Source: Aciduricibacillus chroicocephali (lineage in GTDB: Bacteria > Bacillota > Bacilli > Bacillales > Amphibacillaceae). From it: a stretch of DNA of 64,000 nt. Positions 31,490-47,496 of the stretch are shown here, one piece after another. The stretch is taken from positions 2,246,001 to 2,310,000 of the forward strand of contig NZ_CP129113.1 of the NCBI RefSeq assembly GCF_030762805.1, written 5' to 3'. The first letter of the stretch is position 1. Every line of letters begins with the position of its first letter. The translations under genes were made by a program, and so were the position numbers. The notes under the pieces were generated by a model that ran no database searches, was not told where the DNA came from, and saw nothing but the letters and a program-made list of their open reading frames with translations.

Positions 31490-31645
31490 ATTTGGGCATA
31501 TTCTATTGTGTTTAATTTTTGTGTGTATTCTACTGCTTTCCACCCAGATTCAATGCTTCACACGCTTTATTCCAACACTTTTTGCCGGGATTCCAACAAC
31601 TTTCCCGATTATTCAGCATGTCTGAAAAAGCAGACAAGCCCGGCG

Positions 31646-31823
31646 TACTTATGAGCTGCGTTTCTGGACGAGTTGTTTTCACACTTCGTCTGTCCGGTTC
31701 AGATGGCTAGAAGTTTGCGTCATAAGTAGCCTTGCTACAGGCTTGGAAAAGCTTTAGCCTTACGCAATTCTACTTATGAGCTGCACTTCTGATCAAGCCA
31801 TCTTCACACTTCCGACGTACAGG
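31646..31823. repeat. Intergenic direct repeats (about 52 bp, period 125) with an inverted core
   Basis: TACTTATGAGCTGC with a following TTCACACTTC block occurs at 31646-31697 and again at 31771-31823. About 70 percent of the positions agree by eye. Between them the inverse GTCATAAGTAG (31719-31729) can pair with CTACTTATGA of the second copy. The 412-bp gap between recQ and the aminopeptidase (31450-31861) holds no gene. The pattern looks like a REP-type or miniature element, but no terminal duplication could be fixed. Confidence 0.55.
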
Positions 31824-31861
31824 AAGTACTAGTGCAATCGTTGCGACAGGACGTCGCGAAT

Positions 31862-33097
31862 TTAGATTGTAATTGCCCAAGTTCCGTTTCGGAATACGGC
31901 TTCGGTTGTTCCGTCGGGTTTAACGCCGTCGATATCGAGCTTTTCGGAACCGATCATGAAGTCGACGTGGTTAAGGCTATCGTTGACGCCGTGCTTGTCG
32001 AGTTCTTCTTCATTCATGGATGAGCCGCCTTCGATGTTTGTCGGGTAGGCTTTGCCAAGTGCGATATGGCATGATGCGTTCTCATCGAACAATGTATTGT
32101 AGAAAATTAAGCCAGACTGAGAGACTGGAGACTCGTGCGGTACGAGTGCCACTTCACCAAGACGGCGTGATCCTTCATCTGTGTTCAGCAAATGCTCAAG
32201 CACCTTTTCTCCTTGTTCAGCTTTGAAATCAACTACCTTGCCATCTTTGAATGTCAGGCTGAAGTTGTCGATCAGGCTGCCGCCGTAGTTGAGCGGCTTA
32301 GTGCTTGCAACGGTGCCATTGACACCATATTTATGCGGCATGGAGAACACTTCTTCAGTCGGGATGTTCGGATTGAACTCAATACCCTTTTCAGAAATGG
32401 CAGAGCCACCTTTCCAAATATGTCCTTCAGGTAGTTCAAGTTCAAGGTCTGTGCCAGGTGCCTTGAAGATTAGCTTTTTATAAGCTTTCTCGTTCAGGAT
32501 ACCGCGAGCTTTCTCCAGCTTCGCATTATGCTTATTCCACGCTTCAATCGGATCATCCTGGTCAACACGAACAATTTTAAAGATGGCTTCCCAAAGGTTG
32601 TCAACTGCTTCTTCCTTAGACTGACCAGGGAAAATCTTTTGTGCCCAGTCCCCTGTTGGAATGGCGACGATGGACCATGTGATACGGTCATTCATCGTAT
32701 ATTGGCGGAAGTTCTTCATCGCTTCTCCTGCCGCCTTTGAAGCCATGGCAACACGTTCAGGATCTACGCCGCCGAGCAGGTCCGGATTCGTTCCCCTGAT
32801 AGAAAGGACTGCTCCCCGCTCCTCCGTAATCCAGTCATGAAGTTTCACACGCCACTCCGGTACATTCTTCAAAACTTCTTCCGGTGCATTCTCATATTTA
32901 AGTAATGTTAATTCATCATCTGCCCAGTTCACGAGGACATCTTTTGCACCAAGTTCATACGCCTTTCTCACAACGATGCGGGCAAAATCAGCCCCTTCGA
33001 TTGGCGCATTGATCATCAATGCCTGGTCCTTTTGCAAATTGACACCTTTTACAAGCGCCAACTCTGCATACTTTTCCAGAATTTCTTTACTTGGCAT
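31862..33097 (-). CDS. ampS: M29-family metallo-aminopeptidase (AmpS/PepS)
   Basis: The protein is 411 aa from the ATG at 33097, with GGGAGGG upstream. It is a typical cytosolic M29 enzyme. The N-terminal half starts PSKEILEKYAELALVKGVNL with DQALMINAPIEGADFARIVV. The C-terminal half carries the ligand motifs LGEVALVPHESPVSQSGLIF, ENASCHIALGKAY, HGVNDSLNHVDFMIGS and the last strand GTWAI. These residues hold two metal ions (Co or Zn in relatives). It removes N-terminal residues from peptides for amino-acid recovery. It is a single-gene unit, divergent from the glycosyltransferase. Confidence 0.93.
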   Translation of the reverse strand: MPSKEILEKYAELALVKGVNLQKDQALMINAPIEGADFARIVVRKAYELGAKDVLVNWADDELTLLKYENAPEEVLKNVPEWRVKLHDWITEERGAVLSIRGTNPDLLGGVDPERVAMASKAAGEAMKNFRQYTMNDRITWSIVAIPTGDWAQKIFPGQSKEEAVDNLWEAIFKIVRVDQDDPIEAWNKHNAKLEKARGILNEKAYKKLIFKAPGTDLELELPEGHIWKGGSAISEKGIEFNPNIPTEEVFSMPHKYGVNGTVASTKPLNYGGSLIDNFSLTFKDGKVVDFKAEQGEKVLEHLLNTDEGSRRLGEVALVPHESPVSQSGLIFYNTLFDENASCHIALGKAYPTNIEGGSSMNEEELDKHGVNDSLNHVDFMIGSEKLDIDGVKPDGTTEAVFRNGTWAITI

Positions 33098-38106: not shown

Positions 38107-38285
38107 TCTCTTATTAAGAGTGGTGGAGGGATTAGGCCCTGTGAAGCCCGGCAACCTGGAATCGGGAGACATCTCATTTTTCATGGTGCCAAATCCTACA
38201 GATGTGCATGCACAACTGACAGATAAGAGGCGGACGGACTTAAAAGCGCATCCCCTCTTCCACGTGAAGACAGGTGCGCTTTTTT
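38107..38285 (+). promoter_or_regulatory. SAM-I (S-box) riboswitch with terminator
   Basis: All conserved parts are present: CTCTTAT at the 5' side of P1, AGAGTGGTGGAGGGA, GGCCCTGTGAAGCCCGGCAACC, GGTGCCAAATCCTACAGA, and the 3' side ATAAGAG at 38223-38229. The terminator is AAAAGCGCA (38242) pairing with TGCGCTTTTTT (38275-38285). The antiterminator partner is CCTCTT at 38254, which can pair with AAGAGG of the 3' P1 strand. SAM binding therefore keeps P1 and lets the terminator form, which turns off the sulfhydrylase gene behind it when methionine/SAM is plentiful. Confidence 0.97.
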
Positions 38286-42970: not shown

Positions 42971-44605
42971 ATGATTACCGTTAACAATGTAAGTTTACGA
43001 TATGGTGACAAGAAACTGTTCGAAGATGTGAATCTCAAGTTCACTCCAGGCAACTGCTACGGAGTAATCGGTGCAAATGGTGCCGGTAAATCAACATTCC
43101 TGAAGGTCCTTTCTGGAGAAATCGAGCCGAATAGCGGCAATGTCTCACTTTCACCAGGTGAACGTCTTACATTCCTTAAGCAGGATCACTTTGCTTATGA
43201 AGATGTTCAAGTCTTGGAAACTGTTCTCATTGGACATGAAAAGCTATATAAAGTGAAACAGGAAAAAGATGCAATTTATATGAAGGCCGACTTCACTGAA
43301 GAAGATGGCATGCGTGCTGCCGAACTTGAAGGCGAATTCGCCGAGTTGAACGGTTGGGAAGCGGAATCAGATGCAGCCATCCTTTTAAAGGGTCTCGGTG
43401 TAGATGAGTCCAAACATGATTTGAAGATGGAGCAGCTTGCAGAAGATGATAAAGTAAAAGTACTTCTTGCACAGGCTCTGTTCGGCAACCCTGATATCCT
43501 TCTACTGGATGAGCCGACAAACGGTCTCGACATCCAGGCAATCCAATGGCTTGAAGAATTCCTGATCAACTTTGAAAACACGGTCATCGTTGTTTCCCAC
43601 GACCGTTATTTCCTAAATAAAGTTTGTACACATATTGCTGATGTTGACTTTGGCAAAATCCAAATCTACATCGGTAACTATGATTTCTGGTATGAGTCCA
43701 GTCAGCTTGCACAGCGCATGGCTCAAGAACAGAACAAGAAGAAAGAAGAAAAAATCAAGGAATTGCAAGCATTCGTTGCTCGTTTTAGCGCCAATGCATC
43801 CAAATCCAAACAGGCGACTTCCCGTAAGAAGATGCTCGACAACATCACACTTGATGATATCAAGCCTTCTTCCCGCAAGTACCCTTACATTGCTTTTACA
43901 CCAGAGCGTGAGATTGGTAACGACCTCCTTCGTGTAGAAGGGCTAAGTAAAACAATCAACGGCAAGAAAGTGCTTAACAATGTAAGCTTTACAATTAATA
44001 AGGATGATAAAGTTGCGTTCCTTGGTCGTGATGATATCGCTAAGACAACACTTTTCCGCATTCTAATGGGTGAGTTGGAACCTGATGAGGGAACGTTCAA
44101 ATGGGGCGTAACGACGTCACAGTCATACTTCCCTAAGGATAATTCCGAGTACTTTGAAGAAGAACCGAAGCCGCTCGTTGACTGGTTACGTCAATATTCC
44201 CCTGAAGATGAAACAGAAACATTCCTGCGCGGATTCCTTGGCAGAATGCTCTTCTCAGGCGAGCAGGCACTCAAGAAGTCCAACGTCCTTTCCGGTGGAG
44301 AAAAAGTACGCTGCATGCTTGCTAAAATGATGCTCAGCAATGCCAATGTACTTGTCATGGATGAGCCGACAAACCACCTTGACCTGGAGTCCATCACATC
44401 ACTTAACAACGGTCTGATCACTTTCAAAGGTTCCATACTGTTCTCCTCTCATGACCATGAGTTCGTTAACAGTATTGCTAACCGCTTGATCGAAATCACA
44501 CCGACTGGCATCATCGATAAGGAAATCAGCTACGATGAGTATGCCCGTGATAAAGACTTGCAGAAAAAGATTAGCAGCATGTACGCTGTTGCTGAAGCAC
44601 AATAA
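42971..44605 (+). CDS. ykpA: ABC-F family ATPase (YkpA/YbiT type)
   Basis: The protein is 544 aa with two ABC domains and no membrane segment. Domain 1 has an intact Walker A (GANGAGKST) and DEPTNGLDIQ, but a poor signature (LAEDDKVK). A linker with ARFSANASKSKQATSRKKML follows. Domain 2 has a degenerate Walker A (GRDDIAKTT) but an intact LSGGEKVR and DEPTNHLDLES. In the folded dimer this leaves one proper ATP site (Walker A of 1 with signature of 2) and one defective site, as in YkpA itself. ABC-F proteins act on the ribosome, as translation factors or antibiotic protection proteins; this subtype is usually housekeeping. It is followed by a terminator and is monocistronic. Confidence 0.92.
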   Translation: MITVNNVSLRYGDKKLFEDVNLKFTPGNCYGVIGANGAGKSTFLKVLSGEIEPNSGNVSLSPGERLTFLKQDHFAYEDVQVLETVLIGHEKLYKVKQEKDAIYMKADFTEEDGMRAAELEGEFAELNGWEAESDAAILLKGLGVDESKHDLKMEQLAEDDKVKVLLAQALFGNPDILLLDEPTNGLDIQAIQWLEEFLINFENTVIVVSHDRYFLNKVCTHIADVDFGKIQIYIGNYDFWYESSQLAQRMAQEQNKKKEEKIKELQAFVARFSANASKSKQATSRKKMLDNITLDDIKPSSRKYPYIAFTPEREIGNDLLRVEGLSKTINGKKVLNNVSFTINKDDKVAFLGRDDIAKTTLFRILMGELEPDEGTFKWGVTTSQSYFPKDNSEYFEEEPKPLVDWLRQYSPEDETETFLRGFLGRMLFSGEQALKKSNVLSGGEKVRCMLAKMMLSNANVLVMDEPTNHLDLESITSLNNGLITFKGSILFSSHDHEFVNSIANRLIEITPTGIIDKEISYDEYARDKDLQKKISSMYAVAEAQ

Positions 44606-44611
44606 TAAAAA

Positions 44612-44646
44612 AAGGTTCCGCTGCATTTGCAGCGGAACCTTTTTTA
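44612..44646 (+). terminator. Terminator of the ABC-F gene
   Basis: AAGGTTCCGCTGC and GCAGCGGAACCTT form a perfect stem with a short loop and TTTTTT. Upstream A residues make it possibly bidirectional. Confidence 0.9.
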
Positions 44647-44698
44647 TGTATATGCATAGCCTAGGATATAGTAAATGGACGTCCAGATCGTTTATATC

Positions 44699-44785
44699 GG
44701 ATACAAGTTTGCCTCATACGCCACCAGACTTAGATCTTAACCAACTCATACAGAAACGGTTACAGGAGACGCTTAACTTGTATCC
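44699..44785. other. 87-bp element closed by 11-bp perfect inverted arms
   Basis: GGATACAAGTT (44699-44709) and AACTTGTATCC (44775-44785) are perfect complements. Inside, read leftward, TAACC and GGTTA can form a second helix, and TATGAG occurs twice. It has no recognisable tRNA T-arm or D-arm pattern. It may be a structured RNA, a miniature mobile element, or the end of a lost gene. I cannot assign it. Confidence 0.4.
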
Positions 44786-44844
44786 TCTCACAAAAACAAT
44801 TTAACTCCAATAACAGCTTTCAAACTCTGAACCTTTCTCAACCC

Positions 44845-45067
44845 AAAAAGGGAAAACTGACGGCTCGACTCCGCAGTTCTCCCTATAGCAATATGTATAT
44901 GTAAGATTTTTGGCATATTTGAATAGACATGGCATGCACTGCTCATGTGTTTGAAATTTACTGATAGGTTAAGTGTGTTTCCTCCAGGTTCATAAACGGG
45001 GGCAGTCCTTGCCCCTGGAACCTGTGGTTAAACCGGCCATCTCAATACGGGAGTTGGCCACGTTTAA
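44845..45067 (-). ncRNA. Candidate structured RNA or structured 3' UTR downstream of the LysM-3D gene
   Basis: Read leftward, there are three hairpins. (1) TTAAAC and GTTTAA with inner GGCCA/TGGCC (45028-45067). (2) CAGGTTC and GAACCTG with inner GGGGCA/TGCCCC (44985-45024). (3) A terminator GGGAGAACTG...CAGTTTTCCC (44850-44883) with inner CGG/CCG and TTTTT. No open frame of interest exists here, and the density of paired GC blocks is much above the AT-rich surroundings. It either forms the long structured 3' end of the LysM-3D mRNA or is its own small RNA. No known RNA family was recognised. Confidence 0.45.
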
Positions 45068-45109
45068 TACACAATTGATTGGGAAAGTCTTATAGTATGC
45101 GAGAATGTT

Positions 45110-45949
45110 TTACTGTACAACTGTTACTGTTACAGATTTGCGGCCCCAGTTATAGGCTTGGCTCTTAGATGGTACGTGAACATCAATGCGGTTACCTTTA
45201 ATTGCGCCACCAGTATCTGCTGCAATTGCAGTACCGTAACCAGGAACGTATACTTTAGAACCTAGTGGAATAACACTTGGATCAACTGCGATTACTTTAG
45301 CGTTACGATTAGCTTTCAAGTTAACACCTGTTGCTGTTACACCAGAGCATCCAGCACAATCGGCAGTATACGCTGTTGATTGAACAGTGATCTGCTTGCC
45401 TTGTGGGTTGCTAGTTTGCTTAGCCTGTGGCTGAGCTTGTTGTGTTTGAGCTGGTGCCTGCTGTTTTTGTACAGGAGCTTGTTGTTTTTGAACTGGTGCT
45501 TGCTGTTGGCTAGCAGATTGCTGCACTGGAGCCTGTTGTGGCTGTGCTTGAGCCGGCTGCTGAACTTGACCTGAAAGGCTCAATTTCTGACCTACTACGA
45601 TCAAATCACCAGAAAGATTGTTCCACTGCTTCAATGTTCCAACAGATACACCATTCGCTTTGGCGATCTTGAATAGAGTATCTCCGGATTTTACTGTATA
45701 TGAACCGTTGTTTTGTGCAACTTGAGTGTTGGAGCTTCCGCCACCAACTGAAAGTGTTTGGTTTGGATAGATGATTGTACCCTTCAAACCATTATTTTTA
45801 ATAATTGAATCAACCGATGTATTGTGAGTCTGAGCTATATTCCAGAGAGTGTCTCCCGCTTTTACCTGATAATCTGCGGCTGATACGCTTGTTGCCGCCG
45901 TTCCAGTAATAACGATTCCTGTAGCTACTGCTGCTACCATTTTCTTCAT
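45110..45949 (-). CDS. LysM-3D cell-wall protein (YocH-like)
   Basis: The protein is 279 aa from the ATG at 45949, with AAGGAGG upstream. A Sec signal peptide (MKKMVAAVATGIVITGTAAT, cut after VSA) is followed by two LysM domains (YQVKAGDTLWNIAQTHNTSV and YTVKSGDTLFKIAKANGVSV), then a Gln/Pro/Ala spacer with repeated QAPVQK units, and a C-terminal 3D domain (TAYTADCAGCSG, DPSVIPLGSKVYVPG, AADTGGAIKGNRIDVHV). The three conserved Asp residues are present. YocH-like proteins bind peptidoglycan and act as lytic transglycosylase-type hydrolases. B. subtilis yocH belongs to the WalKR regulon. The low-complexity spacer is spelled with an uneven codon repeat, typical of recent expansion. Confidence 0.93.
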   Translation of the reverse strand: MKKMVAAVATGIVITGTAATSVSAADYQVKAGDTLWNIAQTHNTSVDSIIKNNGLKGTIIYPNQTLSVGGGSSNTQVAQNNGSYTVKSGDTLFKIAKANGVSVGTLKQWNNLSGDLIVVGQKLSLSGQVQQPAQAQPQQAPVQQSASQQQAPVQKQQAPVQKQQAPAQTQQAQPQAKQTSNPQGKQITVQSTAYTADCAGCSGVTATGVNLKANRNAKVIAVDPSVIPLGSKVYVPGYGTAIAADTGGAIKGNRIDVHVPSKSQAYNWGRKSVTVTVVQ

Positions 45950-46064
45950 GTGAAAATGACCTCCTTGAATTTCTGACATTGCCTATACTATCACATGGAC
46001 AGGTGCAGTACAGTTACAGCAAGGTTAAGAACATGTTACAGGAAACCCGTTTTCAGCGTCTTGA

Positions 46065-46347: not shown

Positions 46348-47277
46348 TTAACCAAACAAACCTTTAAAGAAGTCGACGATTGCCTGGAAGAAAGATTTGA
46401 AGAAAGCAACAACCTTCTCCCAGAATCCCTGATCGATGCCGAGTTCATCCATTTTATCTTTCAGCTTCCCTGTCAGATCGTTTAACTGCGTTTTAACTTT
46501 ACTGAAGTCAATGTTCAAGTTACGCATCTTATCAAACAGATCGATGAGCAGCTGACGGTCTTTATCACTTAGTGAGATTTCCAGTTTATTAACCTGGTCG
46601 TTTACAATCTGTTCGACATCTTCTCTCGTTGCCGGCTTCTTGTCAGCGATTTCCTTTTTAATATCTGTCATGAGCTGAGTCGCTTTTTCGCTGTTCATGC
46701 CATCTTTTTTGGCAAGATCAGTCGTTACATCCAACTCCTCATTCGCCAATTCCATACGGTCTTTGTTCAAATCAGCACCAGCTGCATCATACGCCTTGTA
46801 TATACCTGTGAGTGCTGAGTGGCCCGTAACTTTAACCGGTGAGGAAACATCTACGTTCGCATCTTCCACCCCGGCTGTAAGCATCGCGTTCGCATACATT
46901 TCACTCGTTACTTCAGTAATGTTATCTGGTGTGACGATATTGATATTAATGCCTTTGCCTTTATCTTGGCGGGTAATCTTCGCAGATGAGAACATACGTG
47001 AAGACGGGTCACCATTGATATATTTTTGTATATCCTGTCCGGTTACAGTGTATTCTTTTGTATTCGCCGGATCTTTGATATCCAGCTGTTGGCGCACTTG
47101 CTCTTTCTGATCTGCTGTCAGTGAACCGCCATAAACGACGATCGGCACACCAAGCTTCTCGTTAATGACATCTGTATCCGCGTTGCTGCCATCGGATGCG
47201 AATGCCGGCAATGCCGTTCCAAGTGTCATGAAAAATGCAAGCAGCGACACCAATGTAAGTTGCATAGTTCTTTTCAT
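46348..47277 (-). CDS. Exported DUF1002 protein
   Basis: The protein is 309 aa from the ATG at 47277, with AAAGGAG upstream. The signal peptide MKRTMQLTLVSLLAFFMTLG ends at AFA-SDG. The mature part starts NEKLGVPIVVYGGSLTADQK, followed by the strand and helix pattern of DUF1002 (ITEVTSEMYANAMLTAGVED, then DVSSPVKVTGHSALTGIYKA), a long helical part, and a hydrophobic C-terminal helix (FWEKVVAFFKSFFQAIVDFF) that may lie on the membrane. The function of DUF1002 is unknown. It is a single-gene unit. Confidence 0.88.
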   Translation of the reverse strand: MKRTMQLTLVSLLAFFMTLGTALPAFASDGSNADTDVINEKLGVPIVVYGGSLTADQKEQVRQQLDIKDPANTKEYTVTGQDIQKYINGDPSSRMFSSAKITRQDKGKGININIVTPDNITEVTSEMYANAMLTAGVEDANVDVSSPVKVTGHSALTGIYKAYDAAGADLNKDRMELANEELDVTTDLAKKDGMNSEKATQLMTDIKKEIADKKPATREDVEQIVNDQVNKLEISLSDKDRQLLIDLFDKMRNLNIDFSKVKTQLNDLTGKLKDKMDELGIDQGFWEKVVAFFKSFFQAIVDFFKGLFG

Positions 47278-47496
47278 AATCAATCTCCTTTTTCCCACAT
47301 GCTATGAAATCAAGCATGTCAGACGGTGAATTGCATTCTGTTCGTGCTTACGGATTATTATAACGGCAATTGTCCAATAATAGAAATGTTATGTGCACTT
47401 TTTTACCGAACGCAGTTCAATCGAGTGACGTGATTTCAGTTAGAGTATATAATTAAGAGATGGGCCTCATTCCCTTATCCACTAAGAAAGAATGTG

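Follow-up and report, generated by a model that had tools for sequence, protein, structure and literature searches.

Three hairpins behind a LysM-3D gene of Aciduricibacillus chroicocephali, probably part of a long, structured 3' UTR

Downstream of a gene for a LysM-3D protein, three hairpins are located within 223 nt in the direction of the gene. What is this stretch: the tail of the mRNA, an RNA of its own, or the remnant of an insertion? It was analyzed in a stretch of 64,000 nucleotides (to be referred to as the window), which corresponds to positions 2246001–2310000 in a genome of 2,730,537 bases that consists of a single contig. This is the only genome of the genus in the collection.

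Setting and folding of the hairpins

The LysM-3D gene is a 289-residue open frame on the minus strand (45110–45979), with two LysM stretches (Pfam E value of 5.4e-31) and a 3D domain (E value of 4.3e-24). We take it to be YocH-like, and the tail of its mRNA would carry the hairpins. The gene converges with an ATPase gene on the plus strand (42971–44605), which has two ABC_tran stretches and an ABC_tran_Xtn stretch (Pfam) and, judging from these domains, is presumably of the ABC-F type. The intergenic region (44606–45109) is 504 nt long. A gene for a DUF1002 protein (46348–47298, minus strand, Pfam E value of 2.8e-73) precedes the LysM-3D gene and has the same orientation.

The first-pass annotation described two compound hairpins and a terminator behind the LysM-3D gene, in its own direction, and all three are found there, each more stable than its shuffles. 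Hairpin A (45067–45028, minus strand, as are the features that follow) starts 42 nt past the LysM-3D stop codon. Its folding energy is −15.7 kcal/mol (z score of −3.68), and none of 200 shuffles is as stable. Hairpin B (45027–44981), whose compound stem contains an uneven internal loop, has an energy of −21.2 kcal/mol (z score of −2.45, 5 of 200 shuffles as stable). Next comes a linker of 94 nt (44980–44887), which is unstructured (z score of −0.01, 96 of 200 shuffles as stable), and then the T-tailed hairpin C (44886–44845), with an energy of −20.9 kcal/mol and a z score of −5.07 (0 of 200 shuffles). In the context of 45109–44840, the mean pair probabilities are 0.97 for A, 0.90 for B and 0.98 for C. 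The 223 nt from A to C (to be referred to as the element) fold with −68.5 kcal/mol on the minus strand, compared to a shuffle mean of −50.91 kcal/mol (standard deviation of 4.93, z score of −3.57, 0 of 200 shuffles). For the intergenic stretch folded whole (525 nt), the z score is −4.14.

The opposite strand of the 223 nt also folds well (−71.9 kcal/mol, z score of −3.00), and as a result folding cannot decide the strand. The element is assigned to the minus strand from the direction of the LysM-3D gene and from hairpin C with its T tail. The number of G-U pairs in the best fold of each strand, two for the minus and five for the plus strand, is uninformative as an indicator.

Hairpins A and B together (88 nt) are among the most stable stretches of this length in the window. 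Among 15,978 overlapping windows from the two strands, 10 reach their energy of −37.8 kcal/mol, and at least one of these is the same element on the opposite strand. Structure comparable in strength to that of the entire element is not rare, as z scores of −3.57 or below are found in 7 of 513 tiles of 220 nt (out of 798 in the window, with none of the 513 over the element). The hairpins had also been called GC-rich, which is true relative to their surroundings (55% for A and B, against 39–46% in 200-nt windows) but not in an absolute sense. A putative pairing of the loop of A with the 5' arm of C would have a raw energy of −9.5 kcal/mol. Further along the intergenic region, between hairpin C and the terminator of the ABC-F-type gene, there is a perfect 11-bp inverted repeat (44699–44785) with 65 nt between its arms. 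It has z scores of −2.54 on the minus strand and −2.62 on the plus strand, and a single copy in the genome.

Termination and promoter-like sites

Hairpin C is the only T-tailed hairpin within 300 nt past the LysM-3D stop codon. Five T residues are positioned directly behind its stem, followed by GGG, and it is classed as an intrinsic terminator, probably that of the LysM-3D transcript. A simple terminator scan missed it because the scan pattern does not fit the bulged stem, while a gene-end script with a looser definition of the T tail picked it up. Hairpins A and B have no T run behind their stems and are not classed as intrinsic terminators. The ABC-F-type gene has its own terminator at 44608–44645, a perfect 18-nt inverted repeat that is usable from both sides and is listed by the scan on the minus strand.

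The end of the LysM-3D gene was compared with those of 30 other LysM-3D loci, over 300 nt past each stop codon. The loci are the best 29 besides our own from a family search, with one per genome, and one from Sporosarcina; L036 was left out as it is on the same contig as L040. A T tail was defined loosely, as four T in five or six in eight, behind a stem of at most 55 nt with an energy of −8 kcal/mol or lower. All 30 loci have a T-tailed hairpin, as is the case here. The first one ends 39–100 nt past the stop codon in 29 loci and at 162 nt in the last (L053). In comparison, the first T-tailed hairpin in the window ends at 261 nt, with two extra hairpins lacking a T tail in front of it.

Among the LysM-3D genes found, the nearest comes from Candidatus Avamphibacillus intestinigallinarum (order Caryophanales, incertae sedis). 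This bacterium has the same converging gene pair, and the ABC-F-type protein shares 80% identity with that in the window over the 120 residues compared. However, the two genes are separated by 232 nt there, compared to 504 nt here, and a plain T-tailed hairpin follows the LysM-3D gene. This hairpin and hairpin A both start about 45 nt past the stop codon. Descent of A from the Avamphibacillus terminator was considered and rejected, as the two are no more similar than expected by chance (662 of 1000 mononucleotide shuffles give a score at least as high). For the remaining 29 loci, the same gene pair was not seen within the up to 1500 bases covered beyond each gene (up to 3000 in Sporosarcina), and two of them have distant ABC ATPase matches, with 24–28% identity.

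A promoter scan finds no minus-strand site of 9/12 or better between 45110 and 44845. By eye, a weak, sub-threshold hexamer pair is present on this strand at 45120–45092 (TTGTAC and TACTAT, 17 nt apart, 7/12), and a separate RNA might start from it. The overall number of promoter-like sites in the region is near that expected by chance (6 compared to 4.3, with a standard deviation of 2.2). On the plus strand, a promoter-like site at 45068–45096 (TACACA and TATAGT, 17 nt apart, 9/12) would give an RNA antisense to the LysM-3D gene. For Bacillus amyloliquefaciens FZB42, a candidate RNA antisense to yocH is reported in PMC4634765.

Known families, copies and relatives

The first-pass annotation could not match the element to the conserved cores of SAM, T-box, glmS, M-box, c-di-AMP, 6S, SRP or tmRNA, and a search with 4227 Rfam families, among them T-box, 6S, SRP, tmRNA and the riboswitches, agrees, as none reaches its gathering score over the element. 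A permissive scan of 44840–45100 gives two matches to animal RNAs with E values of 9, which are due to chance. Ten further matches below the gathering score, at 44600–44721, are located on or beside the ABC-F terminator and off the element. The claim that there is no coding sequence stands within the scope of the test. Of the 23 stop-to-stop frames that overlap the intergenic region, six were compared with Pfam, with or without a start codon, and none of the six has a match with an E value below 0.1. A 52-residue frame with an ATG start (44946–44788) has no Shine-Dalgarno-like sequence in front of it, by eye.

The element is present as a single copy in the genome and is thus not a mobile or dispersed repeat by this measure. 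A search of the genome gives five other matches of at most 22 nt, with E values of 4.5 or worse. For the adjoining region 44646–44850, thirteen matches of at most 27 nt are found (E values of 0.49 or worse), and no second copy. There is no blastn match among plasmids. The one phage match (40 nt, E value of 0.5) falls on the ABC-F terminator, and one degenerate pattern of hairpin B has no match in viral contigs.

Relatives were searched for with a covariance model of hairpins A and B (88 positions, 31 pairs), built from one sequence entered twice. Overlapping samples of 159 genomes of the family, 397 of the order and 398 of the class were covered, and the filters are stricter in searches of more than 40 genomes, so that weak matches are lost. 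Besides the element itself, there is one weak match in the family sample (G023, E value of 0.54) and five in the order sample (E values of 0.012–0.30), with nothing further at an E value of 0.01 in the class sample. The six matches are unconvincing. Per-genome E values of this size are to be anticipated in a search of hundreds of genomes. They were rejected as relatives; no LysM-3D or ABC-F gene is found within 3 kb of any of them. Five are inside open frames of at least 226 codons, and for the sixth (G268, L077) the longest frame has 77.

The blastn searches give a similar picture. Among 60 genomes besides our own, 47 have matches with E values of 1 or below, all of only 15–36 nt. For 44646–45109 in the 159 family genomes, with at most four candidates scored per genome, the sequence itself and three matches of 26–36 nt are found. 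The best match, of 36 nt in G022 (E value of 5.4e-4 in the 60 genomes and 8.7e-4 in the 159), is located within an open frame of 175 codons, and the other two in the 159 genomes are in frames of 157 and 251 codons. These three loci were also rejected, as LysM-3D and ABC-F genes are absent within 3 kb. The proposal of a novel RNA family is therefore not borne out: the element is seen in this genome only among the samples of 159, 397 and 398, and there is as a result nothing to align for covariation. As far as the genomes searched show, hairpins A and B and the linker are peculiar to this lineage.

Interpretation of the element

The element is probably a lineage-specific, long, structured 3' UTR of the LysM-3D (YocH-like) mRNA that ends in an ordinary intrinsic terminator, with a probability of roughly 0.75. 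The first-pass annotation had offered a structured 3' UTR as one of three readings, and it is the best supported of them. The hairpins are co-directional with the gene, begin 42 nt past its stop codon and are more stable than their shuffles. The T-tailed hairpin C at 261 nt has its counterpart in the T-tailed hairpins at 39–162 nt in the 30 other loci. Moreover, no minus-strand promoter-like site of 9/12 is present between 45110 and 44845, and in the nearest relative found, the genes of this pair are 232 nt apart and the LysM-3D gene is followed by a plain terminator. The divergence of the tail is also in keeping with the review PMC7821165, in which conservation is described as lost around the stop codon and functional 3' UTRs as often not conserved among close relatives. 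The long, species-specific 3' UTRs of that source likewise combine a conserved gene with a tail that is not, and they are structured and end in a terminator; in contrast to them, the tail in the window is known from its sequence alone.

Several observations speak against the 3' UTR. The plus strand folds too, and hairpin C has only five T before GGG and was missed by the simple scan. The hexamer pair at 45120–45092 may be a weak promoter. In addition, termination alone does not account for two strong hairpins in front of the terminator.

If the element is a 3' UTR, transcription from the LysM-3D gene's own promoter would proceed through hairpins A and B, which should not terminate it, having no T tract. 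The mRNA would stop at hairpin C, near 44845, and the ABC-F terminator (44645–44608) could catch minus-strand transcripts that read through it. Hairpins A and B may passively slow decay of the mRNA, by obstructing exonucleases that work 3'-to-5' or RNase J, which works 5'-to-3', or they may be neutral. That they affect decay at all is a tentative suggestion, with somewhat less than an even chance. A 3' UTR here would matter little, as one more that changed wholly between relatives while the gene stayed.

It is unlikely, though worth considering, that the element gives rise to a 3' UTR-derived sRNA. RNase J would decay the LysM-3D mRNA from its 5' end and be halted by hairpin A, which would leave A, B, the linker and C as a stable RNA of about 220 nt, with an open linker that may pair with other mRNAs. 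The arrangement suits such an RNA, with strong hairpins on the 5' side, an open linker of 94 nt and a terminator at the 3' end. There is also a Gram-positive precedent, since PMC9438474 describes a stable hairpin within the 3' part of an mRNA that blocks 5'-to-3' decay and leaves an sRNA. RsaG and RsaC, 3' UTR-derived sRNAs of Gram-positives in PMC9438474, resemble the element in having a hairpin that stops RNase J (here potentially), a linker and a terminator. The element differs from them in having no relatives in any sample searched that would show a conserved pairing region, and in being known as sequence only. Moreover, the 3' UTR pairs with the 5' region of the LysM-3D gene itself no better than expected by chance, as 38 of 200 shuffles give an equally strong or stronger pairing. 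In a bolder and less probable version, hairpin A would block RNase J on the hydrolase mRNA and the lineage-specific RNA of about 220 nt would regulate other envelope genes in trans, coupling hydrolase expression to a small RNA. If a stable RNA were released, a cell-wall hydrolase would be tied to RNA-based regulation in a little-studied lineage.

There is only a slim chance that the element is an inserted or decayed remnant of a mobile element between the converging genes, with inverted repeats that mimic RNA hairpins. An insertion would be in line with the wider spacing of the genes (504 nt, compared to 232 nt in Ca. Avamphibacillus) and with the further inverted repeat at 44699–44785, but no second copy is found in the genome (matches of at most 27 nt, E values of 0.49 or worse), no plasmid matches, the only phage match is on the ABC-F terminator, and Pfam gives nothing better than 0.1 in the six frames tested. 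It is very improbable that the element is an independent non-coding RNA gene, transcribed from a promoter of its own and encoding a new structured RNA specific to the lineage: three hairpins with a z score of −3.57, an intergenic stretch with −4.14 and the lack of an Rfam match would agree with it, but no minus-strand site of 9/12 is located in front, no relative and hence no covariation is found, and the position and orientation are those of a 3' UTR.

Two known RNA families and a repeat are found elsewhere in the window. A SAM riboswitch (RF00162) is located at 38108–38229 on the plus strand, with 79 bits. Bacillaceae-1 RNA (RF01690) is found at 31816–31883 on the minus strand (48.2 bits, where the gathering score is 35), overlapping the end of a repeated extragenic element (31630–31830). 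This repeat is flanked by genes that, from their translations, we take to be RecQ-like helicase and aminopeptidase-like. The motif ACTTATGAGCTG recurs in it 125 nt apart, and ten further blastn matches in the genome (E values of 0.1 or below, 75–89% identical) are grouped at about 1.595, 1.660, 2.131–2.133 and 2.192 Mb.
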